Below the pieces are notes generated by a model that saw only the letters and a list, made by a program, of their open reading frames with translations, searched no databases and was not told the DNA's origin. The translations under genes were made by a program, and so were the position numbers. DNA of 64,000 nt from Meridianimarinicoccus roseus (GTDB taxonomy: Bacteria > Pseudomonadota > Alphaproteobacteria > Rhodobacterales > Rhodobacteraceae): positions 124,001-188,000 of the forward strand of contig NZ_QGKU01000038.1 of assembly GCF_003172915.1 (NCBI RefSeq), read 5' to 3'. This document shows positions 4,601-59,600 of this stretch, piece after piece. How positions within the stretch are numbered: the stretch's first letter is position 1; the number at the start of each line of letters is the position of its first letter.

Positions 4601-5131
4601 GCCGACCTCCGCCCGACCCGGCGTGACCTGATGGCGCTCACTGGCATCGTGCTCGAGAACGCGGCCGACATGGCCGCATGCTTCCCGGAGCTCTGGCCGA
4701 CCCGCGAGGCCGCGAAGAAGGACGGCCAGAGGAAGGGGACAAATGACTATTATAGAGACCTCCATAATAGCAGAATGTCCCCATCCTCGGCGGAGGTGAC
4801 CTATCGCCCGGAAGGTCCCGGCCATCGTGCCCGCACCGCCCGCGTCGATCTCTCCCGCATCCCCGACCCGGAAGCCTGGCTCACCAACCGGCTCGGGCCG
4901 CTCGCCAGCTTCGAAATCTGTCACAGCGTGGGCGCCGACCTCGACGCGCCCGATCCCGCCGACGCTGCGCATCTCGACGCTCTCGCATCCCGCCTGACCG
5001 CCAGCATGCAGGCCGTTCTTGCCGCGCGCCGTGCGGCCCTCGACGCGCTGTCCACACGGCTGGAGGCCGCAAAGCCCGCTGCCCAGCGACACGCGCACCA
5101 CCCCCAACCAGAAAAGGAGACCGAGGCATGA
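1640..5131 (+). CDS. Toprim primase-helicase, phage/plasmid replication protein
   Basis: This 1163-residue protein joins a primase half to a helicase half. Near residues 35-80 is a primase-like N-terminal region; a Toprim core follows with VLVCEGWATGAS near 234 and the acidic VVVADND near 280. The helicase half has a Walker A-like VGLGKT near 417, a Walker B LLVIDEGF near 562 and GRGRGVNRT just after residue 948. The architecture recalls P4 alpha and N15 RepA. The ATG at 1640 follows a G-rich stretch and begins the conserved domain; the frame is open back to 1406. A 48-bp palindrome lies in the coding sequence at 4735-4782. The stop overlaps the next start (ATGA). Confidence 0.75.
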   Translation: MSGWDWRAFDAELRARVPELAVELLGKPTFRAGQEWRWGRKGSLSVVVGGARAGMWFDHEEGRGGWFSDLVGRDLGMAREDATDWIADRIGMAALPRPARQRSAPGATPANDPGEPPTAPATAPRETPPDDDTAPAPNRADEAAARAARIWDSARPAPEDHPYLVAKQAAPLALRMDAGRRLVVPLQDIDGRIHSLETIAPDGAKRFLAGGAKKGHFAVVAAEPGPLGEPAGPVLVCEGWATGASLHMATGHTVIVAMDAGNLMPVAKALRARFPDADLVVVADNDLKPDRDSNAGVDAARKVALAVDGRLAVPDSPGDANDLFCAEGPDAVAALVAGAARIPPPPPTYPAPVLTPDEARASLAEAIDRFMAAIPDYWAAVEAAQEEATNPDANRDPLDFNVVARAALPPLLGLPVDVGLGKTSNARTAIAELIGSGGIGTRKVVYAVPRHDLGAEQVAELKALGLNAMLWKGRTAPDPTDDNPDQLMCLDTEATFDALEIEHPVEQSCCKVKNGAELLLCPWFHDCGYQRQKPLAQAAQVIVCAHDSLFHMKPQAIGEVGLLVIDEGFWQSGLRGLDGKATLTQDGLEPGRTSLTCYNGKGKMDVGATADLIAARERLCKALRVTEPGPLRLGLLEAVGLTPEDCRHAATLERRRMRDAGLRPGMSPVERRKRIEAVLPPAGEPWAPTGRCATLWLILAEALENGHDAAGAELVHEMTEAGSVRALRLRWRSTMRKGWAVQAPILHLDATLRPELVQTYLPRIDIGAPVAARQPHVRIRQVTGSPTSARALTPADNAPERDRKAAATRLRDLRAWIDLRARQCHRPGQAVDLLVIGQKAAIDALRSAGLPPRVEAVHFNALSGLDRWGGIGGMVILGRTLPAPRTVELNAMALTGREPAPNPADAGWWYPTVERRVRLAGDRTAPLAMEEHADPIVESVRWSICEGELIQAMGRGRGVNRTAATPLEIDLLTDVVLPVTVDALVPWADLRPTRRDLMALTGIVLENAADMAACFPELWPTREAAKKDGQRKGTNDYYRDLHNSRMSPSSAEVTYRPEGPGHRARTARVDLSRIPDPEAWLTNRLGPLASFEICHSVGADLDAPDPADAAHLDALASRLTASMQAVLAARRAALDALSTRLEAAKPAAQRHAHHPQPEKETEA
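4735..4782. repeat. AT-rich palindrome inside the primase-helicase gene
   Basis: The outer arms GGGGACA (4735-4741) and TGTCCCC (4776-4782) enclose inner arms CTATTAT (4747-4753) and ATAATAG (4764-4770) around a 10-base loop. The block is far more AT-rich than the gene around it and is translated in frame. It starts 84 residues after the GELIQAMGRGRG motif. A different palindrome occupies the matching place in the second primase-helicase at 59492-59544. Confidence 0.85.
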
Positions 5132-5655
5132 GCTACGACAGATTGCGCCTCTACGACGCCGGCCGCTTCCACGACACGGACCTGCCCGACTGGTACCGCG
5201 AGGCTGAAAGATTGAGCGAGACCGAGCATGGCGATTTCCACCGGGCCTTCGACCGCGTGCTCGACTGCGAGCACACGCTCCTGACCGAGGAGGGCCTGCT
5301 GGGCGGCGCGCTCGAGATCCGGTTCTGGCCGAGCGAGATCCACGGCGTCTTCGTGCTGATCGAGACGCCGCTCTCCTTCGTGGAGCATGTCATCGTCCCG
5401 AACCCGGCCGACTGGCTGCCCTTCCTCTCCCGACACCTCGCCCCGCTCATCGGGGTCGCCAACCAGAGCTCCCTGATCGCGCTCCACGGCAGGATCGGCA
5501 ACGCCTTCATCGCCTGGGCGCGCCACGGCAAGGGCAGCCATATCGGTCGCGAAACGGGCGAGAGCCGGATCGACCTCGACAACGACCGCGACCGTCGCCG
5601 GGCCCAGCAGGCCCGCGCGGCCATGGAGCGGGCCAGGCAGGAGGGCCGGACATGA
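5128..5655 (+). CDS. Hypothetical protein in the primase operon
   Basis: The product has 175 residues and no family that I recognise. It is soluble, with aromatic-rich stretches (YREAERL, EIRFWPSEIHGVFVLIE) and a highly charged basic C-terminal helix. It starts at an ATGA overlap with the primase-helicase stop and has a good AAAGGAG site just upstream. It ends in another ATGA overlap with the next gene, so these genes are one translationally coupled operon. A role in replication of the element is only suggested by position. Confidence 0.7.
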   Translation: MSYDRLRLYDAGRFHDTDLPDWYREAERLSETEHGDFHRAFDRVLDCEHTLLTEEGLLGGALEIRFWPSEIHGVFVLIETPLSFVEHVIVPNPADWLPFLSRHLAPLIGVANQSSLIALHGRIGNAFIAWARHGKGSHIGRETGESRIDLDNDRDRRRAQQARAAMERARQEGRT

Positions 5656-6083
5656 GCCAGCATCGCCATATCGGTCTCGAACGCTTGGACGGTGAGGACA
5701 TCGGCCGGGATCCTCGCACCATGTCTGCCCACGAGCTGGAGTTTCTGGGCCACGCCCGTGTCTCGCCGCTGCGCGCCCTGCGGCTGAAATGCCTCGATTG
5801 CTGCAACGGCTCGGCGAAGGAGGTGCGGCTCTGCACGGCCGTGGATTGCCCCAGCTGGCCGTTCCGGATGGGAAAGAACCCGTGGCGCAGACCTCTCGGC
5901 GGCGAAGAACGCGCCAAGCGCCAGGCGCGGTTCGCAGGCAAGATCACCGTAGCGCCGTCGGACGCCCAGAAAACTGGGGGCGAATTCGGCGCCCCGCATC
6001 TGGGTAGGGCGAGAGACCCGGACGCGCCGACTTCGGCTTTTCCTGCCAGCGTGCTGGACGGAAACACGGGAGGTGCATCATGA
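5652..6083 (+). CDS. Small Cys-motif (putative zinc-binding) protein
   Basis: This 143-residue protein contains a compact cysteine cluster, CLDCCNGSAKEVRLC with a further Cys in AVDCPSWPF, which could bind zinc. The motif is followed by FRMGKNPWR and a basic region, suggesting nucleic acid contact. Proteins with this pattern are, to my knowledge, frequent in alphaproteobacterial prophages and lack an assigned function. It is coupled by ATGA overlaps on both sides. Confidence 0.65.
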   Translation: MSQHRHIGLERLDGEDIGRDPRTMSAHELEFLGHARVSPLRALRLKCLDCCNGSAKEVRLCTAVDCPSWPFRMGKNPWRRPLGGEERAKRQARFAGKITVAPSDAQKTGGEFGAPHLGRARDPDAPTSAFPASVLDGNTGGAS

Positions 6084-6331
6084 AGACCATGCGCTGGCAT
6101 CCTCCGGGCTATGGCGGCGAGCGCCGCGACGCGGACCGCGTCAAACGCGACGGCTGGCGGGGTGAGGCGGGACCGTGGCCCCAGTGGGGCCGCGTAAGCC
6201 CGCCGAACGGCGTGCTGGCCATCTCCATCGACGACGAGCGTCTCAGCTGGCCAGAGCGGGAACTGATCCGACAGCTGGGTGAGAAGTTGTATGGGCCGAG
6301 AAACCGCGAGGCCGATGCGCCCCAGCCGTGA
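6080..6331 (+). CDS. Small hypothetical protein, last gene of the primase operon
   Basis: The 83-residue product is rich in Trp, Arg and Gly at its N-terminus and has a short acidic segment (ISIDDERLSWPERELIRQLGE). No domain is recognised. It starts at an ATGA overlap with the preceding gene, which supports it being real despite its size. It closes a run of four overlapping genes that begins with the primase-helicase. Confidence 0.55.
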   Translation: MKTMRWHPPGYGGERRDADRVKRDGWRGEAGPWPQWGRVSPPNGVLAISIDDERLSWPERELIRQLGEKLYGPRNREADAPQP

Positions 6332-6678
6332 CCGGACTCCCTCTGGACCCTGGAATCCACACCGGGGTCCAGTCGGGGTCCACCCCGCCAACCCGTTGAA
6401 GTTTCTGGTTCCTTCTGGGCCAACACGTATACGGGAGGGCGCAGCGCGCAATATCGCCAGCGACAGGGTCGTTTTTTTGGGAAGCCACCCCGGAATCCGG
6501 TGTCCGGCGGATGCCCGGAAAGCGCAATGATCGTTGGAGGTCGAGAGGCTTGCGTGGTGGACTCCGCGGTGGATCCGGAATCCACGTGGTATCCAATGGA
6601 GTCCATCAACGGAAAGCAATCAGGATCGCTCACAATTCCAGCATGCGCTAGGATTTGCAATGTGGAGGTTTGCACGAG
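6332..6678. other. Intergenic stretch with nested inverted repeats
   Basis: No gene is supported in these 347 bases. It holds an 8-bp hairpin, CTGGACCC (6343-6350) with GGGTCCAG (6365-6372), and a longer dyad, TGGACTCC (6558-6565) with GGAGTCCA (6598-6605), enclosing GTGGATCCGGAATCCAC. Both parts carry GGACTCC and GGAATCCAC, so they look like diverged direct copies. They could be regulatory sites for the flanking genes or remnants of a mobile repeat. Confidence 0.4.
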
Positions 6679-7308
6679 ATGACTGGCGGACAGAAACACT
6701 GGGACGACGTCTACGGCGCGAGGTCGGAAGACGAACTGACCTGGTTCGAGGCCACGCCCGCTCTGTCGCTCGAACTCGTCCGTGCGCATCTGCATCCGGG
6801 CGATCCGTTCATCGACATCGGCGCCGGCGCATCGCGTCTCGTCGATGTCCTGCTCGGGGAGGGGTTTGGCCCTCTCACCGTGCTGGACTTGTCGGGCGCC
6901 GCACTGGCGGTCAGCAGACAGCGTCTCGGCGCTCGGGGCGAGAGCATCGCATGGATCGAGGCGGACATCACGACGTGGGAGCCGGACCGGACCTACGCCG
7001 TCTGGCACGACCGTGCGGTATTCCACTTTCTGACCGCGGCAGAAGACCGTGCCGGTTACGCTCGCACGCTGTCGGCTGCCCTGCGCCCGGGTGGGATCGC
7101 GATCATCGCGACCTTCGCGGACGACGGACCGGAGAAATGCTCGGGCCTGCCCGTTGTGCGCTATGCGCCCGAGGCGCTGGCGCAGGAACTCGACAGGCTG
7201 CTGCCGGGCCGGTACGAGACGCTCGACGCACGACGCCACATGCACATCACGCCGAAGGGCAACCGGCAAAGCTTCCAGTACAGCGTCTTCCGGAAGACAG
7301 ATCGGTGA
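6679..7308 (+). CDS. Class I SAM-dependent methyltransferase
   Basis: The 209-residue protein has the SAM-binding motif I FIDIGAGASRLVD near residues 36-48, followed by the acidic LTVLDLSGAAL and a motif IV region AVWHDRAVFHFL. The fold matches small class I methyltransferases acting on small molecules; HWDDVYG at the start is typical of the family. The substrate cannot be inferred. The ATG at 6679 was preferred because TGGAGGT lies about 10 bases upstream. It faces the minus-strand DUF3489 gene. Confidence 0.8.
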   Translation: MTGGQKHWDDVYGARSEDELTWFEATPALSLELVRAHLHPGDPFIDIGAGASRLVDVLLGEGFGPLTVLDLSGAALAVSRQRLGARGESIAWIEADITTWEPDRTYAVWHDRAVFHFLTAAEDRAGYARTLSAALRPGGIAIIATFADDGPEKCSGLPVVRYAPEALAQELDRLLPGRYETLDARRHMHITPKGNRQSFQYSVFRKTDR

Positions 7309-7366
7309 GACGGGAGCCGCCGCCCCATGCGGGACGGCGGCATTGGGACCGACGTGACGTGCGGCG

Positions 7367-7954
7367 TCAGTCGCGCGGCAGGCTGTAGACCCGCCCGCGG
7401 CCCTCGACCTTCTCGGAGGTCACTTCGAGCCCGAGCTTCTTCTTGAGCGCGCCGGCGAACGCGCCTCGGACCGTGTGCGGCTGCCACCCTGTTTCGGCGA
7501 CGATCTCGTCGATGGTCGCGCCGCCCTCGGCGCGGAGCATCTCGATCAGCTTCGCCTGCTTCGTGCCCGTGCGCGGGGTGCGCGCCTTGGGCGCGGGATC
7601 GGCCTCGGTGGGAGCGTCCTGCGGGGCCTCCGCATAAGGCGCCTCGTCGGCGCCCATGGGCGCGCTGTCGCCGCTCTCCGGCTCGACGCCGATGGCGCCG
7701 AGGCCCGCATTCGTGATGTGCAGGAGGATGGCGTTGCCGTCCTCGTCGTTGCGCCAGATGCGGTTGAGGGCGGCGTCCGCCTTGGTCTGGCTGTCCATCG
7801 TCGTCTCCGCGATCAGCCCGCGCTTCAGCAGCGCGCCCACCACCTTGGCGGCGGCGCCGCCGCGGAGCGAGCCGGGAAGTGGCAGGACGTTGCGGTCCTC
7901 GCGCTGCGCGGCGGCGCTGAGGATGATCGCTTGCGTGTCGGAAAGCTTGGTCAT
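7367..7954 (-). CDS. DUF3489 domain protein
   Basis: The 195-residue protein starts MTKLSDTQAIILSAAAQRE, typical of DUF3489 proteins, and ends in a winged-helix-like block (KLIEMLRAEGGATIDEIVAETGWQPHTVRG) joined by an acidic Pro/Ala-rich linker. The C-terminal helices suggest DNA binding. Such genes often travel with DUF2924 and a serine recombinase in alphaproteobacterial phage-like elements. Here that partner set is about 46 kb away. The start at 7954 has a GGAG upstream. Confidence 0.75.
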   Translation of the reverse strand: MTKLSDTQAIILSAAAQREDRNVLPLPGSLRGGAAAKVVGALLKRGLIAETTMDSQTKADAALNRIWRNDEDGNAILLHITNAGLGAIGVEPESGDSAPMGADEAPYAEAPQDAPTEADPAPKARTPRTGTKQAKLIEMLRAEGGATIDEIVAETGWQPHTVRGAFAGALKKKLGLEVTSEKVEGRGRVYSLPRD

Positions 7955-8049
7955 CTGGGGTCTCCGTGTTCGAGGTCCGCGACATGCGGCGCCTTCTACG
8001 ACCCCGAGCCGCGCAGGGCGCGCGGCGGGAGTTCCGGCGGTGCCGGAGA

Positions 8050-8322
8050 TCAGTCGGCGTGTTCGCCCTCTCCGAAGGCGCTGTCGGTGATGCGCTTCAG
8101 GAGGCTGGCGTAGTGTTCGAGGGTGCCGACTTGGCCCCAGTTCACTTCGTCGGGGTGGGCGTTGAAGTGGTCGGCGCTGAGCGCCTGCAGGCGGGCGAGC
8201 ATCTCGTCGATCTCGGCCTTCTTGCCGATGAAGGCGGCCAATGCGGCTTCCCTGTTCCGGCGCGCCTTCTCGGCGCGGAGTTCGTGTCGCGGGCTGGTGA
8301 TCGGATTCAGGCGCGTGCTCAT
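8050..8322 (-). CDS. Small hypothetical protein next to DUF3489
   Basis: The 90-residue product is mostly helical and charged (RHELRAEKARRNREAALAAFIGKKAEIDEML) with a second short helical part containing WGQVGTLEHYASLLKRI. No catalytic motif is seen. It lies about 95 bases upstream of the DUF3489 gene on the same strand and may share its transcript. I do not assign a function. Confidence 0.55.
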   Translation of the reverse strand: MSTRLNPITSPRHELRAEKARRNREAALAAFIGKKAEIDEMLARLQALSADHFNAHPDEVNWGQVGTLEHYASLLKRITDSAFGEGEHAD

Positions 8323-8433
8323 CGTTGTGGCTCCGGGTGAGTTGCATCGTCCTCGTGGGAATGACGTTCGCTCTGTCCGCGAGGCTTATCAACGATATAA
8401 GCACCTGACTTTGAATGATAATCGGGGCTGGCG

Positions 8434-8625
8434 ATGCAGGGAATGAGCGAGCGCCAGTATGCCGCCCATGTCGGGCTGTCGCGCGGCGTGATGCGAGATG
8501 AGTCCAGGGCTCGGCGGAGAGTGGAAGGGCGCCGTCTGTACGGCCGTCGGGCCGAACGGCAGGCTGGTCATGTACCAGATTGGCAGAAGCGATGCGGAGG
8601 CAGGTTGTTGTCGCTCTCGCAAGAA
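8434..8625 (+). pseudogene. Remnant of a phage 'external origin' HTH gene
   Basis: The frame opens with GMSERQYAAHVGLSRG, which I recognise as the conserved N-terminus of a small phage protein found near terminase genes in Rhodobacterales. After about 25 codons the match is lost. A later piece in another frame (GRLVMY, then DNA resembling the usual DGSIDAEAS region) shows it has suffered frameshifts and a small insertion. The copper island begins just beyond, so this may be one edge of its insertion. The rest of 8626-8937 holds only a hairpin. Confidence 0.5.
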
Positions 8626-8853
8626 TCTGCTCAGCGATTGGCGACGGTCACTTCTAGTCCTCTTGGGAAAGGAGTCCGTCGACTGGTTGTCGAGCACAGC
8701 CGGCTTTTCCAGGGCAAGAGGCCGTGAGATTGGCGTTGCCAAGGGCAAAGCTGGCAATCGAGTCGATACCAAAGGATTATGTCGGGGTGCGAGATCGGCT
8801 CTGCGGTGTCAGCGGCAAAGGCGCTTCTTGGGACCCGGCATATGCATGGCAGT

Positions 8854-8877
8854 GCGCCTGCGGTTTTCCGCAGGCGC
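8854..8877. terminator. Strong hairpin downstream of the copper operon
   Basis: GCGCCTGCGG (8854-8863) and CCGCAGGCGC (8868-8877) form a perfect 10-bp stem with a TTTT loop. It lies about 60 bases beyond the stop of the minus-strand DUF411 gene. There is no U-tract on either side, so it may stabilise the 3' end or act with Rho. Confidence 0.4.
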
Positions 8878-8937
8878 CGTCGGTTCATTCGCTCCGAACG
8901 ACCTCGCTGTCCCGCCGCGGGGGCTTTGGGCTAACCC

Positions 8938-9399
8938 TTATGCGTGCCGCTCGAAGACCTCCGTCGCGCCGTTACGCAGCACCAGAAGGGTATCGAATGC
9001 TTCGCGCTGATTGCCCATTTCCATGCCGGGCGAACCGATCGGCATTCCCGGCACCGTCAGGCCAAGCGCGTCCGGGCGCTCGGTCAGCAACCGCTGCACA
9101 TCGCCGGCCGGCACGTGACCTTCGACGAAGTAGCCGTCGACGAACGCGGTGTGGCACGAACTCAGTTCCGGTGTGACGCCTGCGAGGGCTTTCATCGACC
9201 AGAGCGTCTCATGATCGACGTCGCGCGCCAGGGCATCGAAGCCTGCTCTGAGCATGTGGTCGACCCAGGCCGAACAGCAGCCGCAAGTCGGCGATTTGAA
9301 GACCTCCATTTGACCGGGCGTTGCCAGTGCCGGGCGGGCGAGCGTCGCCGCGCCCAAACCCGACGCGATACCGGTGAGGATGAAGTTTCTGCGGTTCAT
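8938..9399 (-). CDS. DUF411 copper-related periplasmic protein
   Basis: This 153-residue protein has an RR-containing leader (NRRNFILTGIASG) ending near PALA, so it is probably exported. The mature part opens with the DUF411 signature MEVFKSPTCGCCSAWVDHM, a CxCC metal-ligand candidate, and later has SCHTAFVDGYFVEGHVPAGD. DUF411 proteins are known from metal-resistance clusters and are thought to bind copper. It is the last gene of the minus-strand block, 40 bases after the oxidase. The ATG at 9399 starts the leader; an upstream extension is open but unlikely. Confidence 0.8.
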   Translation of the reverse strand: MNRRNFILTGIASGLGAATLARPALATPGQMEVFKSPTCGCCSAWVDHMLRAGFDALARDVDHETLWSMKALAGVTPELSSCHTAFVDGYFVEGHVPAGDVQRLLTERPDALGLTVPGMPIGSPGMEMGNQREAFDTLLVLRNGATEVFERHA

Positions 9400-9439
9400 G
9401 TGCTGTGTCTCCCTGTTCGAGTTTCGCTCGGACCGCGCG

Positions 9440-10816
9440 TCACGCGACACGCAGCCAGGTCATCATTCCGCCGGCAGAGTGCTCAAGCATGTGGCAATGC
9501 AGAAGCCAGTCACCGGGATTGTCGGCGACGAAGGCGATCTCGACGGTTTCGCCGCGGTTCACAAGAAGCGTGTCGCGCAGCGGGCCCACGGTCCCGTTCG
9601 TACGGATGTGCCGGAAGTGGTGCCCGTGCAGATGCATCCCGTGCGGCCAGGCGGTGTCGTTGATCAGGACGATCCGTGCGGTCTCGCCGCGGTGCAGGTC
9701 GATGAGCGGCGTGTCGTCCATCTCCAGCTTGCCATTGAAGGCCCAGACCCTGCCCGCCGAGACCATCCCGCGCATGCCCATCATGCCACCTGCCATCATC
9801 GCGCTCATCGCGCCGCCTTCCATCTTCAGGTCGGCCCGTCTCGCGCGGTCGAGGGGTCCGAGGGCCGGGACCGGGTTCGGCGGCAGGGCGTCGGGGGCGG
9901 GCAAGGCGGCCGGCCGGGCGATGCCTTCGACCGGAAAGGCGGCGAGCACGTAGGCGCCGTTGCGTTCGAGGCTCAGGAGGACAGCCTCCTCACCCTCATT
10001 GGCCACCACGTCGACGATCAGGTCGGCTCGCTGCGCCGGTGCAAGCGCGAGTTCGGCGAGCGGCAGGGGGGCTTCGAGCGGCATCCCGTCGAGCGCCACG
10101 ACCCGGCCTTCGACCCCTTGCGCGGCGAGCGTGAAGATCCGCGCGTTCGCCGTGTTCACGAGGCGGAGCCGCAGACGGGCGAGCCTCGGCACCGCGCGCG
10201 ACCAGGCAGCGTCGCCATTGACCGTGATCCAGTTGCCGATCCGCCCGGCATGCGCCCGGTCGTGCATATTGCCAAAGCCGCCGGCGATCTGAGCCTCGTC
10301 CGTGAGGCGCCAGTCGTCGAGTAGGAGCACCTCGTCCAGATCGACCTCGGGCGCGCCGGTGCTCTCCTCGACGATCAGCGCCCCGTAGAGGCCGCGCGCC
10401 AACTGCTCGTAGGTGCGGTTGTGGGGATGATACCAGTAGGTGCCCGCATCGGGCAGAGTGAACTCGTAGAGAAATTCCTCCCCTGGTTCCACGGCGGCTT
10501 GCGTCAGGCCCGCAACACCATCCATGCCGTTCGCCACCCGGATGCCATGCCAGTGCACCGAGGACGGTTGGGGAAGCCCGTTCCGTAACAGGCGGGTCAT
10601 CCGTTCGCCCTGGCGTGCCCTGAGGACGGGGCCCGGGACGGTGCCGTCATAGCCCCAGATCCGCGTTTCGGGATAGTCGGCCGGGGCGAGCTGCGCTCTG
10701 CCCTGCCGCGCGTGGAGCACCGGAGCGGCCTCGGCCCGGAGCGTGCCGGGCAGCGTCGCGGCGGCTGCGGCGGCGAGCGCCGCGCCATGGAAGTGCCTGC
10801 GGGTCAGTCGTGTCAC
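9440..10816 (-). CDS. Multicopper oxidase, CopA/SufI type (first copy)
   Basis: The 458-residue protein has a twin-arginine leader (TRRHFHGAALAAAAAA) and all four copper motifs: HWHG, WYHPH, HGMHLHG and LHCHMLEH with a distal Met. It should be exported folded and oxidise Cu(I) to less permeable Cu(II) in the periplasm. A Met cluster (MSAMMAGGMMGMRGM) may be a cuprous-ion site. The GTG at 10816 has AGGAG upstream and overlaps the copD stop as GTGA. A diverged paralogue lies at 33147-34541. Confidence 0.9.
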   Translation of the reverse strand: MTRLTRRHFHGAALAAAAAATLPGTLRAEAAPVLHARQGRAQLAPADYPETRIWGYDGTVPGPVLRARQGERMTRLLRNGLPQPSSVHWHGIRVANGMDGVAGLTQAAVEPGEEFLYEFTLPDAGTYWYHPHNRTYEQLARGLYGALIVEESTGAPEVDLDEVLLLDDWRLTDEAQIAGGFGNMHDRAHAGRIGNWITVNGDAAWSRAVPRLARLRLRLVNTANARIFTLAAQGVEGRVVALDGMPLEAPLPLAELALAPAQRADLIVDVVANEGEEAVLLSLERNGAYVLAAFPVEGIARPAALPAPDALPPNPVPALGPLDRARRADLKMEGGAMSAMMAGGMMGMRGMVSAGRVWAFNGKLEMDDTPLIDLHRGETARIVLINDTAWPHGMHLHGHHFRHIRTNGTVGPLRDTLLVNRGETVEIAFVADNPGDWLLHCHMLEHSAGGMMTWLRVA

Positions 10817-11772: not shown

Positions 11773-11778
11773 CGCGCG

Positions 11779-12135: not shown

Positions 12136-12200
12136 GTCGTCTCGCGTCTCCTTGCGGAGCGGGCGACCGGTGCATTGCAGCCGGTCGCCGCGCAATCGTC

Positions 12201-47898: not shown

Positions 47899-47904
47899 GC
47901 AAGG

Positions 47905-50176: not shown

Positions 50177-50577
50177 GTGCCGCCGCCGAGCGCGCGCACG
50201 ATCTCGGCAATCCGGCCCGCAGGCGTGGCACCGTCCAGCCGGACAGCCACCGACCCGGCCATGATCTCGATCGCCGAGGGCGCCGGCTCCGCATCTTCCG
50301 CCGTCGGCCGGTTCTCGGCATCGAACACCACCAGCGGCGCGAACTCCGCCTCACCCTTCGGCGCCGGCAGAACGAGATCCCCGTCCTTGGCCATCCGCCG
50401 CCATGCCGAAAGCTGGTTCGGGCGCAGGTCATACTTGCGCGCCACGTCATTCACCGTCGTTCCAGGCACCAGCGTTTCCGCCACGACGCGCGCCTTCACA
50501 CGATCCGGCCATCGACGGCTCCCGGTCTGCGAGACCTCGACGCCCAGACGCGTGAGAAACTCGTTCGTAGTCTCCAT
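50173..50577 (-). CDS. tnpA: IS66 accessory protein TnpA
   Basis: The 134-residue protein has a helix-turn-helix of the IS3/IS66 Orf1 type (RRWPDRVKARVVAETLVPGTTVNDVARKYDLRPNQLSAWRR). It likely recognises the element ends. The ATG at 50577 is preferred to the GTG at 50589, which lies in the ribosome-binding sequence AGGAGGTGAG. Confidence 0.93.
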   Translation of the reverse strand: METTNEFLTRLGVEVSQTGSRRWPDRVKARVVAETLVPGTTVNDVARKYDLRPNQLSAWRRMAKDGDLVLPAPKGEAEFAPLVVFDAENRPTAEDAEPAPSAIEIMAGSVAVRLDGATPAGRIAEIVRALGGGT

Positions 50578-50662
50578 TGAGAAACTCACCTCCTGCTATC
50601 CAACAGGACGTGAGTCCCAGATCGCGGCCCTCAGCAGAAGGTGCCTGCCAGACGCCGCTTAC

Positions 50663-51695
50663 GGGTAACGTGCCTGGGTGGCGCGAAGATTTTTTCCTGC
50701 TGGCCACCCTGTCTCATCACGGCCGGCTACTTGATAGCGAAAATCTGAAGTCTTCAGCGCATACGAGCTCTGATCTGGCAACTCTGATTGGCCGGTCTTT
50801 GATCGAAATGTATTGGAGAAACCAGCGCAGGCCGCTAAGAACCTATCGCCGCCTGAAAATGCGAGAATTTGCAATTGAAGGCGATTTCGATCCGGAGGAC
50901 CTATCCCATCCCGCAGAGGAGGGGTTTCCGCAAGAAGTTACATCTTTCACGCGCCTCAACCCCTACAACGCCGTCATCCGTTCCGCAGCATTGCAACTTG
51001 CGCCCATCGTGCCGGACGTCGAAACGCGCGTTCGACTGGAGCGCCTTGCCCAGCATCTGCCTTACCAGCCAAGACCTCCACGTTTACATGATCGGCGATT
51101 GCCGAGTAGATCCCGATCCTGGCAACCCACATTTGACCTTTCGCTCGATATTCTCCGTGGTCTGGGAGGGGCCTATGACCCGAAAAATGCACTCGCCCCG
51201 GGCTACATCATGCAGACTTGGCAGGTCTGGGAACAGCTTATCTCTCTTTCCCTGCGGAGTGTTTTTTCACCAAAGAGCGTCGTGCTCCAGGCTCAGCACA
51301 AGCTAGGGACTCGCCGCGTTGGTCGTGCAGTTAAGGATCTTCATGTTTATCCCGATGCAATCGTCTCCGTAGGCACGGAAGGAGACCTACGCAAGATCAT
51401 TGTCGATGCGAAATACAAGGGTCATGTTGAGCGGGGAACCACTGGAATTTCCAATGCGGACATATATGAAGCCCTTGCCTTTTCTCGGGCGACTGGAATT
51501 TCTGATGCCGTTCTGGTCTATCCAAGGCCGGTTGATGGTGTGCCATCCGCGCTGGATGAAGTTGGTCACGCAAAGGAATTCGCAAGAGTAGTGGCAGATG
51601 GGGTCACCCTTCGTGCCGTCGAACTGGGTGTCTGTGGTATTTCTCGGCGTGGCGGCCTTAAACGATTTTCGGAAGCTTTTGCCGGTGCTCTTTAA
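50663..51695 (+). pseudogene. McrC-like nuclease gene, 3' part (split by IS66)
   Basis: After the second GGGTAACG, the frame continues VPGWREDFFLLATLSHHGRLL and encodes the remaining residues of the McrC-like protein. The nuclease motif is near DAIVSVGTEGDLRKIIVDAKYKG, matching the PD-(D/E)xK core of McrC. No start of its own is evident. The protein cannot be made whole while the IS is in place. Confidence 0.82.
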
Positions 51696-51831: not shown

Positions 51832-52215
51832 TCAATTAAAGTGTAAAAACTGCGTTTCCCACTGCACAGGAAACGGCTCAAGTACCCTTGCCAGCGTCAC
51901 CTCCGTGCCCTGCTCCCCGTCCAGGATCGCGTTGACGATGCCGGGGGCGAGAAGGGTGAGGCGCAAGACCCGGGTCATGTACGATGGCGCGATCCCTTCA
52001 CGCTCGGCCAGTTCGGCGATGGTAGCGGACTCACCTGCCTCCAGCATCCGCTTCCAGCGGAACGCGCGGGCCAGCGCCTTGACCAGTGTGTTGTCCGTCC
52101 GCCGCGGCTGCGCGACGCCTTCCGGGAGCCGCATCTCCTTCCGCCCGCCGCGCTTCACGATACGGAACGGAACGTGGAGCGTCACCGTGTCGGGGGCCGG
52201 GGTCCCGCGGGTCAT
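51832..52215 (-). CDS. Small HTH protein downstream of serine recombinase
   Basis: The 127-residue protein has a ParB/HTH-like block (SATIAELAEREGIAPSYMTRVLRLTLLAP) and ends in VLEPFPVQWETQFLHFN. Its start overlaps the recombinase stop by ATGA. Such small proteins commonly follow this recombinase type in alphaproteobacteria and may act as a recombination-directionality factor or repressor. Confidence 0.7.
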   Translation of the reverse strand: MTRGTPAPDTVTLHVPFRIVKRGGRKEMRLPEGVAQPRRTDNTLVKALARAFRWKRMLEAGESATIAELAEREGIAPSYMTRVLRLTLLAPGIVNAILDGEQGTEVTLARVLEPFPVQWETQFLHFN

Positions 52216-53522
52216 GCCGCTGCTCCGAAGCTGCCAGACAGCATCTCGCGCGCGAGGCCGTCGAGCCCGTCCACCCTGAGCCGGACGTTCAATCCGCCTG
52301 TGCCGACGTCGACGCGCTCGACCAGCAGCGCCACGATGCGGGCCTGCTCTGCGGGGAAGAGTTCGTCCCACAGCCGGTCGAGCTCTTGCAGGGACGCCCG
52401 CGCGTCGGCCTCGGAGATGTCGTCGGAATTGGCGCGTGCCGCCTTCCAGGTCCCCGCAACAATCTCCGGCTGGCGGAACACGGCGCGGAGTTGGTCTATG
52501 ACGGCGCCCTCGATCTCGCCCGCGGGCACGCGGCCGACCGAGCAAGATCCGGCGCCATGCTTCAGCACGGTCTGGCTGACATAGTAGCGGTACAGCCGCC
52601 CGCCCTTGCGGGTGTGGGTCGGCGAGAACGCCGCGCCGTCGGGCCCGAACAGCAATCCCTTCAGCAGTGCGGGCGTCTCGGCCCGGGTGCGCGCGGCGCG
52701 CTTTCGCGGGCTCTCCTGCAGGATGGCGTGCACGCGATCCCACGTTTCGCGGTCGATGATCGCGTCGTGCTCGCCGGGATAGCTCTCGCCCTTGTGGACC
52801 GCCTCGCCGATGTAGGCGCGATTGTTCAGCACGCGGTAGAGGTACTTCTTGTCGATCCGGTTGCCGCGGGGCGTGCGGATGCCGCGCTTCGCGACCTCGC
52901 GCGCCAGTTCCGTGCCCGAGCCGATTTCGAGGAAGCGGGCGAAGATCCAGCGGACATGCGCGGCGGATTCTTCATCCACCACCAGCTTGCGGTTCTCGAC
53001 GCGGTAGCCGTAGGGCGGCACACCGCCCATCCAAATGCCCTTTCTGCGGCTGGCGGCGACCTTGTCGCGAATCCTCTCCGCCGTCACCTCGCGCTCGAAC
53101 TGGGCAAACGAGAGCAGGATGTTCAGCGTTAGCCGCCCCATGGAGGTGGTGGTATTGAACGACTGCGTGACTGAGACGAACGTCACACCGTTGCGGTCGA
53201 ACACCTCGACCAGCTTGGCGAAATCGGCGAGCGAACGGCTCAACCGGTCGATCTTGTAGACCACCACCACGTCGACCAGCCCGTCCTCGATGTCCTCCAG
53301 CAGCCGCTGCAGGCCGGGCCGTTCCAGCGTGCCACCGGAGATGCCACCGTCGTCGTATTGGTCGCGGACCAGTACCCAGCCCTCGGAGCGCTGGCTGGCG
53401 ATGAACGCCTCGCAAGCCTCCCGCTGGGCGTGGAGGCTATTGAACTCCTGCTCCAGCCCTTCCTCGGAGGACTTCCGGGTGTAGATGGCGCAGCGCTGCT
53501 TGCGCACGATGGGCTTGGTCAT
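52212..53522 (-). CDS. Large serine recombinase
   Basis: The 436-residue protein has the resolvase catalytic domain (CAIYTRKSSEEGLEQEFNSL with the active Ser, DGGISGG, YKIDRLSRS), a recombinase domain (YGYRVENRKLVVDEE, NNRAYIGEAVHKGE) and a C-terminal zinc-ribbon/coiled-coil region. Large serine recombinases integrate and excise phages and mobile elements, so it is a candidate integrase for region 4. No att site could be found by eye. The ATG at 53522 overlaps DUF2924. Confidence 0.88.
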   Translation of the reverse strand: MTKPIVRKQRCAIYTRKSSEEGLEQEFNSLHAQREACEAFIASQRSEGWVLVRDQYDDGGISGGTLERPGLQRLLEDIEDGLVDVVVVYKIDRLSRSLADFAKLVEVFDRNGVTFVSVTQSFNTTTSMGRLTLNILLSFAQFEREVTAERIRDKVAASRRKGIWMGGVPPYGYRVENRKLVVDEESAAHVRWIFARFLEIGSGTELAREVAKRGIRTPRGNRIDKKYLYRVLNNRAYIGEAVHKGESYPGEHDAIIDRETWDRVHAILQESPRKRAARTRAETPALLKGLLFGPDGAAFSPTHTRKGGRLYRYYVSQTVLKHGAGSCSVGRVPAGEIEGAVIDQLRAVFRQPEIVAGTWKAARANSDDISEADARASLQELDRLWDELFPAEQARIVALLVERVDVGTGGLNVRLRVDGLDGLAREMLSGSFGAAA

Positions 53523-53974
53523 GTCCGCGCCCTCCGGTTCTTCAGCCCGAAGAATACCCACCCATTCCACCGGGTGCCGGTGATGGCGCGGGCGATGGCG
53601 GACAGCGACTTGTAGGGCCTTCCCTGCCACTCGAAACCGTCTGCGGTGACGGTGACGGCGTACTCGACGCCCTGCCATTCGCGCAGGAGGCGCGTGCCGG
53701 TGATCGGGCGGTCGCGATCGGCGCGGAGGCCGCGCTTCCTCTTGTCGCCGCCATCCAGTTCCTCGCCCAGCCGTTCGAGGCGCCGGACGGTCTCGGGCTT
53801 CAGCCCGCCATAGGCGAGTTCTTGAATTCGGTATGCGAGGCGGCTTTCAAGATAACGGCGGTTGAACGGCGGCGGTTCGTTGTCGAACAGATCGCGCCAT
53901 TGCTGCTTCAGGTCTGGCGTCGATGTCGTCTTGAGCGCGGCTAGGCGCGCGGGGATCGGATCGTGGGTCGTCAT
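53519..53974 (-). CDS. DUF2924 domain protein
   Basis: The 151-residue protein matches DUF2924: WRDLFDNEPPPFNRRYLESRLAYRIQELAYGGL, then LREWQGVEYAVTVTADGFEWQGRPYKSLSAIARAITGTRWNGWVFFGL. The family travels with serine recombinases in this order. Its function is unknown; involvement in DNA rearrangement or its control is plausible. CAGGAG precedes the ATG; both ends overlap neighbours by 4 bases. Confidence 0.82.
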   Translation of the reverse strand: MTTHDPIPARLAALKTTSTPDLKQQWRDLFDNEPPPFNRRYLESRLAYRIQELAYGGLKPETVRRLERLGEELDGGDKRKRGLRADRDRPITGTRLLREWQGVEYAVTVTADGFEWQGRPYKSLSAIARAITGTRWNGWVFFGLKNRRART

Positions 53975-54177
53975 GCGGTTCTCCTGTGTGTCGGAGTTGT
54001 ATGACGGCATTGGCCGGGCGGAGAGTGTAGGGAACTTTCTCCAGTTTCGTCAGATACTTCGCTTGCATCATCCCGCAGCCTGAGCCGCACGAGGCCGAGC
54101 GCCAGCAGGCCGCACATCTCGGCCCGCCGTTCTGCGGGCGTCATTCGATCCGGGTGCAGGGCGTTCGGGCGTTTCAT
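53971..54177 (-). CDS. Small hypothetical protein at the head of the recombinase operon
   Basis: The 68-residue protein contains MTPAERRAEMCGLLALGLVRLRLR, a short helical stretch typical of the tiny protein that precedes DUF2924 in related elements. Its stop overlaps the DUF2924 start by ATGA. The remaining sequence is Ser/His/Thr-rich and without motif. Confidence 0.55.
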   Translation of the reverse strand: MKRPNALHPDRMTPAERRAEMCGLLALGLVRLRLRDDASEVSDETGESSLHSPPGQCRHTTPTHRRTA

Positions 54178-54456: not shown

Positions 54457-54969
54457 GTGAAGGAAATCATTGATGATCTCATGGCCGAGCGCGAGGCTTT
54501 GCAAGCGAGACTGCAAAAGATCGATACAGCTATCGCAGATTACCAGCGTTGGGTTAGCTCGGTTGCTGACCTGGTCGGGGCCGACAAGGTGCCAGCGAGC
54601 GGCGAGCGCTTCAATGTAACTGCGACAGAGCAGCAAGCCACAATCTCGGAGTTCGAAGATGCCGTTATCGCGCTTTTCGATACAGCGCAAAAACCGCTCA
54701 AGAGAACAGAGGTTTTCGAGGAGCTCACGAAAGCCGGTTTGGTGGTTGGGGGCAAGGACCCGCTAAATACCGTCGCTTCGCGGCTCAGTCGCATGCAGGG
54801 GATCACGAATGTCAGGGGGCACGGCTACTGGGCAGCACACCGACCGTATCTGCCTGCGGGCCATGAGGGTGAGAGAGGTGATCCATCGGGAGGCACCGAG
54901 ACCGCAGACCAAGGTCAAGCTAGCGGGCTGTTTCCTGTTTCAGTCGACACCACAGGTGTCAACTCGTGA
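54457..54969 (+). CDS. Coiled-coil plus winged-helix-like protein
   Basis: The 170-residue protein has an N-terminal coiled coil (DDLMAEREALQARLQKIDTAI) and a later winged-helix-like block (EDAVIALFDTAQKPLKRTEVFEEL...GGKDPLNTVASRLSRM). I do not recognise it in full. The GTG at 54457 has GGAGGG about 8 bases upstream. It is translationally coupled to the zinc-ribbon gene by GTGA overlap and may be regulatory. Confidence 0.55.
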   Translation: MKEIIDDLMAEREALQARLQKIDTAIADYQRWVSSVADLVGADKVPASGERFNVTATEQQATISEFEDAVIALFDTAQKPLKRTEVFEELTKAGLVVGGKDPLNTVASRLSRMQGITNVRGHGYWAAHRPYLPAGHEGERGDPSGGTETADQGQASGLFPVSVDTTGVNS

Positions 54970-55196
54970 ATGATTGCCAGAAAAATCTGACGAGCAGTGC
55001 GGTGACGCCTGATGGAAGCAAGCAAGGGACCGAGTGGAACTGCTCTCAATGCGGCAAGCCCATCGGCGAACTGTACAGAAAGAAGGTGCACCTGCGTCCG
55101 CCTCGGAGCCACACGTACTACGCTGCGTATCCTGTTTCCGCGACCTGTTGCAGATGCGGCCAGCGCAACACGGTTGCGCGCTGCCAATCCTTTTAA
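54966..55196 (+). CDS. Small zinc-ribbon protein
   Basis: The 76-residue protein has two CxxC pairs: WNCSQCGKPIGELYRKKVHL and TCCRCGQRNT. The layout recalls the phage Mu Com protein, a small translational regulator, but the match is by pattern only. It starts at a GTG overlapping the preceding stop. Confidence 0.55.
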   Translation: MNDCQKNLTSSAVTPDGSKQGTEWNCSQCGKPIGELYRKKVHLRPPRSHTYYAAYPVSATCCRCGQRNTVARCQSF

Positions 55197-55304
55197 TGTG
55201 CCGGAGACGATACCTCTCCGACCACATTTTCAAGGCGTCTGACGCCAGCTAGGCCCATTTGGAGGCGCGCGACGCCCGGGCGAATAGAAACAAGGTCTCT
55301 GCGC

Positions 55305-56237
55305 TTGTCCGGATCATGGAACGCACTTCGAAAGCAACTTATTCATCAAGTCAGATCATCGGGGTTCCAACAGTGGTACTGGGAAATGCGCAGGTTGAAT
55401 GGCGTGTTGGAGCCCTTCCCCGACCCCATGTGCATGTTTGATTACCTGCGTGGGCCAAACGGAACACCCGCGGCAAAGAACCGTATCCTTCGATCCGTCA
55501 TGGCTTGCCGGAAAAGCTACCCGGAGACGGCGGGTGTCTTGCTGACGCTCGCGCTTTGGCCTGCACTTGAGAATGGCTACCGAAAATTGTGCAGAGGCTT
55601 CCCAGGTGACCCCGATGGCGTGGCAGCCGAGTTGTTGGGGGCTTTTTGCAAGACTGCGATGGAAGCGGATCTGCAGAAAGTCCACGTCGTCGCAGCTACG
55701 TTGACACGCAATGCGAAACGCGATGCGACGGTGGCGCTGTTAGCTCAAAAACATTCTGTTGCGAGCCTTGATCCGAAAATCGAGGGGCACGCCGATAGTT
55801 TTGATGGACCCTCCGCCGTCAAGCCGGGTTCCTCGGAAATGACAGATGCTGGCGAGCTAAGGGATCTCCTTTTGCGGGACTTCGGCTCCGACGGTGCGCT
55901 GGCGTTTGACGTGATTGTCAACAATGTCTCACAGCGTGACGCGGCAAGACGTAGAGCTGAGTCGTACGACGTGACGCGCAAACGCTATCAGCGGACTGTC
56001 AAACGCATTCGGGAGCAGCGCCCGGATTATCTTGTGCCTCGTGTCCCAATGCGAGCGCCCGATTGGCATTTATCTCAAGACGGCACCGGACAGGCCGGTG
56101 CCAAAGGAGATACTGCTATCGATGGCACGCAAGGATCAACACGAACGTCTGCCGGGGTATTACCTGGCGTGGGAACTTCCCGACATATTGCAGATCGGCG
56201 GCGAGTACCGGATCGAACCCGGGGCCGAAACAAGTGA
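55305..56237 (+). CDS. Unrecognised protein, weakly sigma-factor-like
   Basis: The 310-residue frame starts at TTG 55305 at earliest by usual codons, but is open further upstream, so the start is uncertain. The part around GAFCKTAMEADLQKVHVVAATLTRN and the basic helix RRRAESYDVTRKRYQRTVKRIREQRPDY recall sigma-type regulators. This is only a hint. The tail after residue 270 overlaps another frame and may not be part of the original protein. Lower GC than neighbours. Confidence 0.45.
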   Translation: MSGSWNALRKQLIHQVRSSGFQQWYWEMRRLNGVLEPFPDPMCMFDYLRGPNGTPAAKNRILRSVMACRKSYPETAGVLLTLALWPALENGYRKLCRGFPGDPDGVAAELLGAFCKTAMEADLQKVHVVAATLTRNAKRDATVALLAQKHSVASLDPKIEGHADSFDGPSAVKPGSSEMTDAGELRDLLLRDFGSDGALAFDVIVNNVSQRDAARRRAESYDVTRKRYQRTVKRIREQRPDYLVPRVPMRAPDWHLSQDGTGQAGAKGDTAIDGTQGSTRTSAGVLPGVGTSRHIADRRRVPDRTRGRNK

Positions 56238-56301
56238 CGGCTCGACGCTTGTTGCAGTTTTTCGGCGGGTCGCTGATCACGATAATCGGTCAAGCGAATG
56301 A
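56122..56301 (+). CDS. Possible small protein overlapping the preceding gene
   Basis: The 59-residue frame starts MARKDQHERLPGYYLAWELPD and has AAAGGAGA 11 bases upstream. It overlaps the end of 55305-56237 by 116 bases in another frame, so one of the two ends is probably not real. No family is recognised. Confidence 0.35.
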   Translation: MARKDQHERLPGYYLAWELPDILQIGGEYRIEPGAETSDGSTLVAVFRRVADHDNRSSE

Positions 56302-56416
56302 TGTTCGTTGCGCACAGCGCCAATGGCATGATGCCTTGGCTGACGTTTCGGCGTTTACACCGACACACTAGTGTGCGGCCGACAGCCAAGCGGTCTCAAT
56401 ACAGCAGGGCCGGTTC

Positions 56417-56632
56417 ATGACCGGAGAAGCTCCGGCCGGAAACTGTTCGCGGCGAGGTGATTGCGTTCTCACGCAGCGCGAGCTGGCGGCGCGTTGGCGG
56501 GTGAGCCCGCGGACGCTGGAGCGCTGGCGTGCGGAGGGGTACGGGCCTGCGTGGCTGACCATCGGCGGCTCGATCCGCTACCGGCTTGCGGACGTTCTGA
56601 CGTTCGAGCGCGCCCAGCGGCGCGACCCCTGA
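56417..56632 (+). CDS. Small helix-turn-helix protein (AlpA/excisionase-like)
   Basis: The 71-residue protein carries one MerR/AlpA-like helix-turn-helix: CVLTQRELAARWRVSPRTLERWRAEGYGPAW, followed by the strand pair SIRYRLADVLTFE. Such proteins act as excisionases or as regulators of phage replication genes. It lies 10 bases upstream of the PrimPol gene and may control it. Confidence 0.72.
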   Translation: MTGEAPAGNCSRRGDCVLTQRELAARWRVSPRTLERWRAEGYGPAWLTIGGSIRYRLADVLTFERAQRRDP

Positions 56633-56642
56633 GTAAGGGGCG

Positions 56643-59600
56643 GTGGTGCCGAAGGATCAGGCGCCGCCGGACAATCAGACAAACGCGCGGGGGGCTTCAG
56701 GCCGCCCCGTCGGTGCTGGGCATCCCATATTTGCGGATATCGCCGAGCAGCTGCACGACAATGGCTACGCCCCGCTTCCGATCCGGCCGGGCACGAAGGC
56801 CCCCGCGCCAAGCCGGTGGAGCAGCGTGACCATCGACCCGGCACAGGTCGCGCGCTGGTGCGAGGCGTATCCGCGGCTCGGTGTCGGCATGCGCACGGGC
56901 GAACTGGTCGGGCTGGACATCGACATTCTTGACCCGGACCAAGCCCACCACGTGCAGGCCGCGGCCCTCGCGCGTTTCGGCGAGACGCTGATCCGGGTGG
57001 GGCAATGGCCCAAGCGGTTGCTCCTGTACCGCACGGCCGAGCCCTTCGCGAAGATGTCCGTGCCCGGCATCGAGGTGCTGGGCGCGGGGCAGCAACTCGT
57101 GGCCTTTGGCATCCATCCCCGGACTTGCGCGCCCTATGCCTGGGTCACGGGAGAAACCCCGCTGGAGGTGCCGCTGGACGACCTGCCGGTCGTAGATGCA
57201 ACGGCGATGGCGGCATTCCTCGGCGAGATGGGCGCTGTGCAGCCGCCGCAGTTGTCGGGGTCCAAGCAGCGTCGCTCCGGTGACACGCTTGCGCAGAACC
57301 GGCCGACCAGAGACTCCGAAGGGCGCGTAATCGACGGACGCGACGGGTGGTTGTCGACGATCGCCTTCCACGCGGTGCACGATGCGGTGGACCGGAACGA
57401 CCCGCTCCAGCCCGACATTCTCGCATATGCCGTCTGGGCGCGCTTCGCGGCCACTGCTGATCTGGACCGTTCCCGCGACAACGGCCGCCCTTACACCCTG
57501 CAGGACGCCGCCCGGAAAGTGACAGACAAGCTGCGGCTGTTTGACGAGAGGCGCTTGCCGGACAGGGAGGCGCAGGTATCGCCCCCGAATCATACGCCTG
57601 CGACCGACAGCGTGGAGGCCGCACGGCTCAAGCTCGATGCCGCCATCGCGGATGCTTGCGACCGGATCTTGAACTGGCACGAAAGCGAGAAGACGGGTCC
57701 AGCACCGCGCATCGGGCTCAGGGCCACGGTGGGGCTGGGCAAGACGGCGGTGTCGCGCCGTCATGTTCTGGCCCTGCAGCGGGGCTTGCGGGAGAAGTGC
57801 CTTCCGGACAGGGTTATCGTGTTCACGCCGTCCCATGCTCTGGCCGAGGAAGCCGCGGCTGACTGGCAGGTGGACGGGGCGAAGGTTGCCGTGCTGCGCG
57901 GCTACGAGCGGGCGCATCCGGTCCACCAAACGCCCATGTGCAGCGACCTGCCAGCCGTGCGCGCCGCAGTGGCAGCGAAACTCCGTATTCACGAAACGGC
58001 CTGTCAGGACAAGCATGGCAACACGTGCCCTTATTTCCAAGGTTGCCTGAAGCAGGAGAACCGCAAGGAGGTCGCGGGAGCCGAGGTCGTCGTGGCGCCC
58101 TATGACGTACTTTTCACCGGGCTCGGCATTCCGCCCGACACGATCGCGCTCATTCTGGTGGACGAGGCCTGTTGGGCGCGGGCGGTGGGTCAGACCAAAG
58201 GCCTCCATGTGGAAACTCTCGACAGCGAGCCGCTTTCCGGGCTGGGCGGGGGCATGTTCCGGGCGGCGGATGCCGGACGGATGGCGGACCTGCAGGCATT
58301 GCGCGTCCTGCTGCGCGATGCACTTGTGGCGAATGGTCCCGGTCCGGTGCATGGTCACGTTCTGCGCGCGGTCGGACTCGACGCCGAGGCCTGCCGCAAT
58401 GCTGCAGACTTGGAGCAGCGACGTTGTCAGGACCCCGGACTGCGCCCCGGCCTGTCTCCGCAGGACCGCAAACGCGCCACAGCGGTCGCGCATGGAAATG
58501 CGCGGTCCGCGCTGAACCAGGAACTCTGGTCTGTGCTGGCGGTGCTGCTGGAGGCGGGGGTTGAATGCGACGGGCGGGTCCGGGTCGGGGCGCGCGATCC
58601 CGGGACCGGCCAGTCAGCTATCGTCATCAACAAGCTCGCAGCACTGCACCCAAACCTCGTGGGCAAACCGATCCTGCATCTCGACGCCACGATGGTGCCG
58701 AGGATCGCCGGAACCGTCTTGCCCGGGATCAGGGTGACCCAGATTGATGCCGCGGCCCCGCACATGCACATTACGCTGGTCGCGGGGCAGTTCGGCAAGT
58801 CGGCCCTCTGCAATGGTCCTCGCGCATCACCCGTCGAGCGTGCTCGACGCGAACGCAACCTGTCCGCTTGTGTCGATCATGTCTGCTGGCATGCCGCCCG
58901 CGTGATCCCGGGACGCACGCTGGTGGTCACCTACAAGGCAATAGAGGCCGCCTTCGGGGGCATCCCCGGCGTGGAGGTCGCGCATTTCAATGGGGTCGCG
59001 GGGCTCGATGGCTGGCGCAACGTGGCACAGATCATCGTGATCGGACGCCCGCTTCCGTGCGACACCGATTTGAATGACCTTGCTGCAGCGCTGTTCGGGC
59101 ACGACGCGTCGGCTGACCGCTATGCAAAGGATGCCGTCGGCGTCTGGATGCGCAATGGCTCACATCGCGGTGTGCAGGTGCTGCGCCATGGCGACCCGCT
59201 GGCCGAAGACATCCGTGCGGCCATCTGCGACGCCGAACTGATCCAGGCCATCGGCCGCGGGCGCGGCGTGAACCGCACGGCGGACAATCCGCTGGAGGTG
59301 CAGGTCTTGGCTGATGTCGCCCTACCGCTGGTGCATGACCGGATCACGACCTGGGACATGGAGGCACCCGACCTGATGCAGCGCATGCTGCTGGAGGGCA
59401 TCGCCACCGACAGCCCCGGCGATGCGGCCGTGTTGCATCCGGGAATGTTCTCGTCCGCCAACCAAGCGAAGCTCGCGCTCCAGCGATCGCTATTTAAGGG
59501 TCAAATCCCTATAAGAGATACCTATAAGGGTTTGACCCTTAAATCAGCCCGCTACCGACGCGCCGGCCGGGGGCGCGGTTGGCAGACTGCCTGGTGGATC

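Follow-up and report, generated by a model that had tools for sequence, protein, structure and literature searches.

The window analysed here is a 64,000-nucleotide stretch of the Meridianimarinicoccus roseus genome (contig NZ_QGKU01000038.1, positions 124,001 to 188,000). It contains two genes, P0001 and P0002, that encode primase-helicase fusion proteins, and each gene carries a nested, AT-rich palindrome within its coding sequence. An earlier sequence-only reading had placed palindromes at these points in both genes, which we confirmed on the sequence. Both lie about 90 codons 3′ of the sequence QA(M/I)GRGRG, which we take to be motif VI of the superfamily 2 (SF2) helicases. The features of the two genes are the following, in window coordinates.

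1406–5131, +: P0001, a TOPRIM primase (Toprim_3) fused to an SF2 helicase; longest open reading frame, the true start may be later
4490–4513, +: presumed SF2 helicase motif VI of P0001, QAMGRGRG, used as reference point
4697–4732, +: probable recognition helix of P0001, PTREAAKKDGQR, placed by alignment to P0002
4715–4720, +: arm-tracking residues K75 and K76 of P0001, inside the probable recognition helix
4729–4788: nested palindrome of the P0001 gene, type A, outer arms GAGGA-A-GGGGACA/TGTCCCC-A-TCCTC
4735–4741 and 4776–4782: the type A arms GGGGACA/TGTCCCC as previously named in the P0001 gene; the site also holds CTATTAT/ATAATAG
4747–4770: type A inner palindrome of the P0001 gene, CTATTATAGAGACCTCCATAATAG
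56643–59681, +: P0002, a Prim-Pol primase fused to a DinG/XPD-like SF2 helicase
59244–59267, +: presumed SF2 helicase motif VI of P0002, QAIGRGRG
59457–59486, +: predicted recognition helix of P0002 (model residues 619–628), from the AlphaFold model and arm co-variation
59469–59474, +: arm-tracking residues K623 and L624 of P0002
59492–59544: nested palindrome of the P0002 gene, outer arms ATTTAAGGGTCA/TGACCCTTAAAT, inner palindrome CCCTATA...TATAAGGG
59541–59597, +: two predicted, wing-like β-strands after the palindrome of P0002 (model residues 647–665)

The two proteins are 34% identical across P0001 residues 465–1169. The first palindrome has the arms previously assigned to it but is larger than thought, extending to GAGGA...TCCTC at 4729–4788 rather than 4735–4782. 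Likewise, the description of the two palindromes as unrelated holds for their sequences, which share no long stretch, but not for their architecture, as both consist of variable outer arms set off by short spacers from an AT-rich inner palindrome. The repeat at 59492–59544 is the longest separate-arm inverted repeat listed in the window (22-nt arms, 91% complementary), and the palindrome scores of both genes were unreached by 300 of 300 shuffles keeping protein and codon usage.

We compared these sites with those of homologous genes. In a tree of 56 representatives, the clade comprising both window genes (29 rows, support 99/96) exhibited the palindrome in 29 of 29, with site scores of 13–26, and the supported branches require at least three changes of palindrome state. 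The members' palindromes are unlike in sequence and lie in differing codon phases. Clustering at 70% identity yielded 63 clusters, 45 with a palindrome and 18 without; in this count L068, whose palindrome is missed by the rule, is a false negative (it is positive in the tree), L270 and L237 do not contain the site, and of the weak cases L063 and L230, neither of which is among the tree negatives, the former counts as negative and the latter as positive. The expectation that an alignment of homologues would reveal a varying palindrome at this point in most of them was thus borne out. For the synonymous shuffle test 86 genes were used, seven of which were left out for want of a recognisable motif; 60 of the 79 testable genes were reached by at most 5 of 300 shuffles and 53 by none, and in 63 the site outscores everything else scanned in its own gene. 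This gene set, like those of the mismatch and GC/phase/arm counts below, contains near-copies, and the chance GC-rich matches L066, L071, L219, L237 and L270 were excluded from the stem-mismatch and GC/phase/arm counts.

Sixteen close relatives of P0001 from viral contigs fall into two natural allele types, with arms GGGGACA...TGTCCCC in type A and GTGTGACA...TGTCACAC in type B (one arm mismatch in L004); the sixteenth, L017, is of type A. In more distant relatives, on plasmids and in other genomes, the palindrome occupies roughly this position but is quite different in sequence. Two Bradyrhizobium genes (L052, L083) have about 25 extra residues separating the recognition helix from the palindrome, with a partial copy of the palindrome-encoded peptide. 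Alpha proteobacterium BAL199 holds near-identical type-B genes on two contigs of one genome (L087, L093), so that elements of one type can share a genome, at least in the integrated state. Unrelated spaced repeats, GAGTGTGACA...TGTCACACTC, were observed in Nonomuraea sp. G32 (L084, L091) and Nonomuraea sp. MG754425 (L089). Searches with the C-terminal part of P0002 as sole query matched 3 and 12 stretches, no relative among them; query A4 found no relative in viral_contigs, phage records yielded none of L053, and in the best 40 of 223 phage records matching P0002 the similarity was confined to the primase end. A 14-base arm pattern had at least 120 matches in viral_contigs.

What is kept at these sites is the DNA of the palindrome and not the encoded peptide. 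The palindrome centres lie at phases 1.5 and 1.0 in the window pair, in rough agreement with the earlier claim of a common codon phase, whereas the family as a whole occupies all six half-base phases; as the reading frame through the palindrome varies between families, the peptide is not the conserved thing. A matched-change test covered 14 of the 17 P0002-clade sites (L246 and L250 are of other length, and L248 equals L060). Pairing holds for 95.9% of their arm cells; changes on both sides affect 20 cells compared with 7.0 in shuffles (0 of 500 as high) and 7 pairs compared with 3.8 (4 of 500). For 23 relatives of P0001 the synonymous difference is 0.118 under the palindrome against 0.325 elsewhere, the lowest of 400 windows. 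Furthermore, the GC content of the 60-bp site is below that of its own gene in 83 of 83 cases, averaging 0.42 versus 0.66, with 0.33 for the inner part.

The arms vary together with a short segment of the protein. Across 23 genes of the P0001 family, the arm type matches residues +71, +75, +76, +78 and +79 with no exception, all of them encoded upstream of the palindrome. Within the P0001 clade, KK or RK goes with GGA and RQ with TGA in 36 of 36 genes, many of them near-copies; this count is by the left arm, the right arm of L267 differing at b10, and L266 (RQ, no register) stands outside it. A separate helix-arm switch is seen between the sister pair L258/L267. An unbiased scan of the P0002 clade (15 genes, median identity 53%, 1360 tests) placed residue +75 with arm base b8 at rank 2, K/R going with G and Q/E/D with C in 15 of 15, and +76 with b10 at rank 5 (14 of 15, exception L245); the other top-five columns are codons of the palindrome itself. 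The lineage L060/L248, not in that set, has arms that disagree at b8 (T and G). In a 16-gene scan, +75/b8 ranked 3 by the left arm (15 of 16) and 2 by the right (16 of 16), in either case the best column outside the palindrome, as those ranked above are palindrome-encoded; +70, +76 and +72 with b10 followed at ranks 5–7. The rule used for the arm register assigns none in 13 of 81 genes and gives ACACCA for L221 (GGGACA by eye), the rule version being the one used for predictions outside the P0002 clade. This co-variation strongly suggests that the protein reads the palindrome in its own gene. The proposal of the sequence-only reading, that each palindrome serves the protein of its own gene and has diverged while keeping its place, gains in this way from both the presence in most homologues and the tracking of the arms by an upstream helix.

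The AlphaFold model of P0002 from residue 321 on has a pLDDT of 89 and places +75 and +76 (residues 623 and 624) in a helix comprising residues 619–628, preceded by helices 591–597 and 605–611 and followed by two strands; the palindrome encodes a less confident loop in between (about residues 630–648). On this model, the C-terminal segment appears helix-turn-helix-like, with three helices and two strands. For the helicase part, Foldseek returned 6fwr as the best match (E 4.3e-14), with DinG or XPD at ranks 1–6, these six at 13–14% identity and TM-scores below 0.5, and chains of TFIIH, repair or transcription complexes at ranks 7–12. Iron-sulfur helicases have conserved cysteines, and in alignment A6 of the homologues C113, C134 and C142 are invariant and C148 nearly so, four candidate ligands of an iron-sulfur cluster. 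The primase-helicases resemble DinG/XPD in the helicase fold of the P0002 model and perhaps in these cysteines, but differ from them by the primase fusion and the C-terminal helix-turn-helix-like domain. No named family in the libraries used matched the helicase or the C-terminal domain, and P0001 and P0002 yielded neither a Rep-family match in Pfam or NCBIfam nor a Pfam match to the rolling-circle nicking domain PF02486.

Relatives are carried by plasmids of 18–40 kb, pCMU02, pNYY1_6 and Roseivivax unnamed5. In the gene tables of these three, which have gaps and many hypothetical entries, no other initiator is recognisable. In all three, the tested arm string occurs once per strand and only at the site; three further plasmids hold a single exact arm copy because their arms are imperfect. 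In pNYY1_6, the detrended GC-skew minimum lies 188 bp from the site. Three plasmid records (L050, L051 and L054; 18.6, 24.4 and 114.9 kb) are labelled linear, which may be an assembly label or may denote real linear plasmids.

Taken together, each palindrome is probably a cis-acting origin, or at least the initiator-binding site, of its own element, located inside the initiator gene. The initiator would be the primase (TOPRIM or Prim-Pol) fused to the DinG/XPD-like SF2 helicase. Its helix-turn-helix-like segment after the helicase core would read the outer arms in duplex DNA, with each arm bound by one protomer; melting would take place between the arms, in the AT-rich inner palindrome, and the helicase could load there, followed by priming through the primase. 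Directly following the recognition helix, the palindrome-encoded stretch would be a linker of loose structure whose sequence could drift without harm to the fold. We infer dimer binding, melting, origin function and incompatibility, the origin function because the protein is a primase-helicase and the only evident initiator of the three plasmids.

Several observations weigh against this reading. The palindrome is absent in 13 of the 56 representatives, a finding that the sequence-only reading had itself set against its proposal; all 13 are outlying and outside the inner clade. GC-rich stretches elsewhere in these genes score 14–15 and overlap with the site scores, the weak members L041, L050 and L060 score 13, and L050, inside the clade, reached only 11 of 300 in the shuffle test; with scores overlapping the chance maxima of GC-rich genes, it is position, AT content and shuffles that carry weight. 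In the matched-change test, the signal for further pair types is weak (12 versus 9.5, 41 of 500 shuffles as high). Several rules of the P0002 clade rest on single genes (R, E, D, H, M). Applied to representatives outside that clade, the rules give the correct b8 in 9 of 19 (permutation p 0.53) and the correct b10 in 8 of 9 (p 1.0, A being the base in eight of the nine); a scan across 25–31 representatives does not single out +75/+76. A universal helix-base code is rejected by these chance-level b8 predictions and the global scan. In the P0001 clade, the helix adjoins the arms, and recombination of a single block could explain the association. The isolated C-terminal domain gave 0 Foldseek matches in the PDB at E ≤ 0.001, and with no solved structure matching it, it is helix-turn-helix by topology only. 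The GC-skew check suggested earlier gave a mixed result, in favour of the site in one of four plasmids and not in the other three: the minimum of pAt2 lies 3.9 kb away, and in pCMU02 and p546-7 the site is not at an extreme.

The same skew profiles could fit an origin located elsewhere and a protein-binding site used for control (autoregulation, copy control or incompatibility), and co-variation as such speaks for recognition, not for initiation. A location about 90 codons past motif VI, towards the gene's 3′ end, would however be odd for an operator; moreover, the AT-rich inner palindrome is retained along with the arms, which suits melting, and the protein combines a primase and a helicase, as expected of an initiator. 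We thus consider a control site unlikely. A structured RNA or single-stranded DNA hairpin, acting in the mRNA or recognised by the primase as a priming signal, is more doubtful still. In its favour, both sites fold strongly as RNA (−28.3 and −25.4 kcal/mol, z −6.5 and −5.9), as would any long palindrome, and on the coding strand A-A accounts for many of the spacer mismatches (93 of 267 mismatched pairs). As G-T wobbles and A-C mismatches are about equally frequent (47 versus 50 overall, a count still including chance GC-rich matches; 18 versus 17 in stems), a hairpin of one strand is not favoured and was set aside on this balance; in addition, the arm bases track helix residues. A-A is by far the commonest kind of mismatch, both spacers being A-rich on the coding strand, an asymmetry that symmetric binding does not account for.

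A recombinase site serving telomere resolution, attachment or dimer resolution would recall telRL of N15, a 56-bp palindrome with a similar CCATTATA...TATAATGG core, and would fit the three carrier records labelled linear and the integrases or recombinases nearby. Near the window genes, however, the recombinases are of the large serine type, the open reading frame around the site is uninterrupted, and the arms co-vary with the helicase's own helix, all of which renders this explanation highly improbable. The least credible of all is the alternative raised in the sequence-only reading, mobile REP- or RPE-like insertions, to which we attach next to no weight. It would account for AT-rich palindromes that sit in frame in mostly GC-rich genes and encode a loop, and for the recurrence of type-B arms in the distant relatives L052 and L081. 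Yet each palindrome is single-copy in the 4.29-Mb genome, the second match of 59492–59544 being its own opposite strand, so that the dispersed copies named beforehand as speaking against a site of the gene's own were not seen; the position is fixed, and the sequences are unalike between clades. Across 84,980 genomes, the type-B arm pattern occurs in 17 stretches, 13 of them at the same place in this primase-helicase gene (Erythrobacter, Bradyrhizobium, Rhizobium, Asaia, Reyranella, Tateyamaria and others) and four unrelated, without a homologue. The inner pattern was found in 16 viral contigs, 16 of 16 with the gene, 15 of which had already been found through the protein. Single copy number and the fixed gene position of the pattern matches rule out a dispersed repeat.

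Beyond an origin inside the initiator gene, the data lead us to lean, by a narrow balance, towards a self-addressed, swappable origin cassette, in which about 110 bp of one frame encode the recognition helix together with its DNA target, and helix and target change together to give new compatibility types. With both within about 110 bp, one recombination event could swap them jointly and give a new compatibility type. New types might arise by such recombination, as for types A and B, or through point changes in both partners, the latter seen several times in the P0002 clade. If true, the cassette would make origin specificity partly readable from sequence and provide a candidate origin and specificity determinant, from sequence alone, for a broad group of alphaproteobacterial plasmids and integrated elements. 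The many natural helix-arm pairs would offer material for studying the evolution of initiator-origin specificity and plasmid incompatibility, and the site would constitute a clear case of a coding sequence carrying a second message at the DNA level.

Both genes are probably parts of integrated elements, as large serine recombinases are located upstream of both. That of the P0001 gene lies just left of the window (L300:9711–11126); the other and its neighbour lie within it.

52215–53678, −: large serine recombinase, probable integrase of the P0002 element
53522–54010, −: DUF2924 gene adjoining the serine recombinase

The P0002 gene is flanked by a McrBC-like restriction component and an N6/N4 DNA methylase (50577–51695 and 61675–62949). 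Left of the window and upstream of the P0001 element, we observed a Clostridium_P47-type gene (PF06597; L300:1610–3145, −) and a DDE transposase (L300:6099–7028, −). Elsewhere (G000:C50:12022–12512), two short overlapping fragments (L020, L021) are 66–73% identical to parts of P0001 residues 184–347 and are perhaps the remnant of another P0001-like primase gene.

That origins can lie inside initiator genes is already established. The origin of pT181 is inside the rep gene and that of N15 inside repA; oriS of herpes simplex virus 1 (HSV-1) is not known to lie inside its initiator gene. RepC, the initiator of repABC plasmids, is not known to have primase or helicase domains; the phage lambda ori consists of iterons, not of one palindrome, and its O protein is not known to contain a helicase or a primase. 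To our knowledge, the HSV-1 origin-binding protein has no primase fusion. For Rep of pT181/pC221, a six-residue specificity result is reportedly at hand, going by the title of a cited paper.

The parallel to phage N15 drawn in the sequence-only reading holds for the TOPRIM part only. N15 RepA combines TOPRIM and an SF2 helicase like P0001, and the TOPRIM regions align (27% over 162), but the helicase parts do not. In Pfam, P0001 matches only Toprim_3 and weakly Toprim_4, N15 RepA matching Herpes_ori_bp and weakly Toprim_3. A scan of N15 repA showed no comparable palindrome (best score 10). Membership of P0001 in the N15 RepA family is rejected on the missing Herpes_ori_bp match and the lack of a comparable palindrome in the N15 gene. 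From pT181 Rep, a rolling-circle nicking initiator, P0001 and P0002 differ in that no nickase is seen in them by Pfam, and in that arms and AT core are nested in one palindrome.

In the open-licence literature, we did not find the primase-helicase family or an adjacent helix-target cassette described. One of the nearest parallels is repABC, an alphaproteobacterial system whose initiator, in the portions of the sources at hand, has an AT-rich origin in its own coding sequence as proposed here. The oriV inside repC of Rhizobium etli p42d is AT-rich and cis-acting, and silent changes abolish replication (PMC3155836); the location in repC also appears in the available portion of PMC9040568. The p42d study reports an absence of iterons and no constant position for the AT-rich stretch, as far as the same portion goes (PMC3155836). 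The initiator proposed here differs in not being RepC, given the lack of a Rep-family match in Pfam or NCBIfam. According to the excerpted text, Rep of pT181/pC221 acts on a conserved and a plasmid-specific inverted repeat, the latter read by its C-terminal part (PMC4797284), and the lambda ori is placed within the initiator gene O in the part available of PMC7157519. The HSV-1 origin-binding protein, an SF2 helicase, is described in the accessible part of PMC12543377 as binding, with its C-terminal part, inverted boxes around the AT-rich spacer of oriS; this layout resembles the proposed arms and AT-rich inner palindrome. As far as these portions of the sources extend, none of the systems compared combines such a primase-helicase with one nested palindrome at a fixed place beside the helix that would read it.

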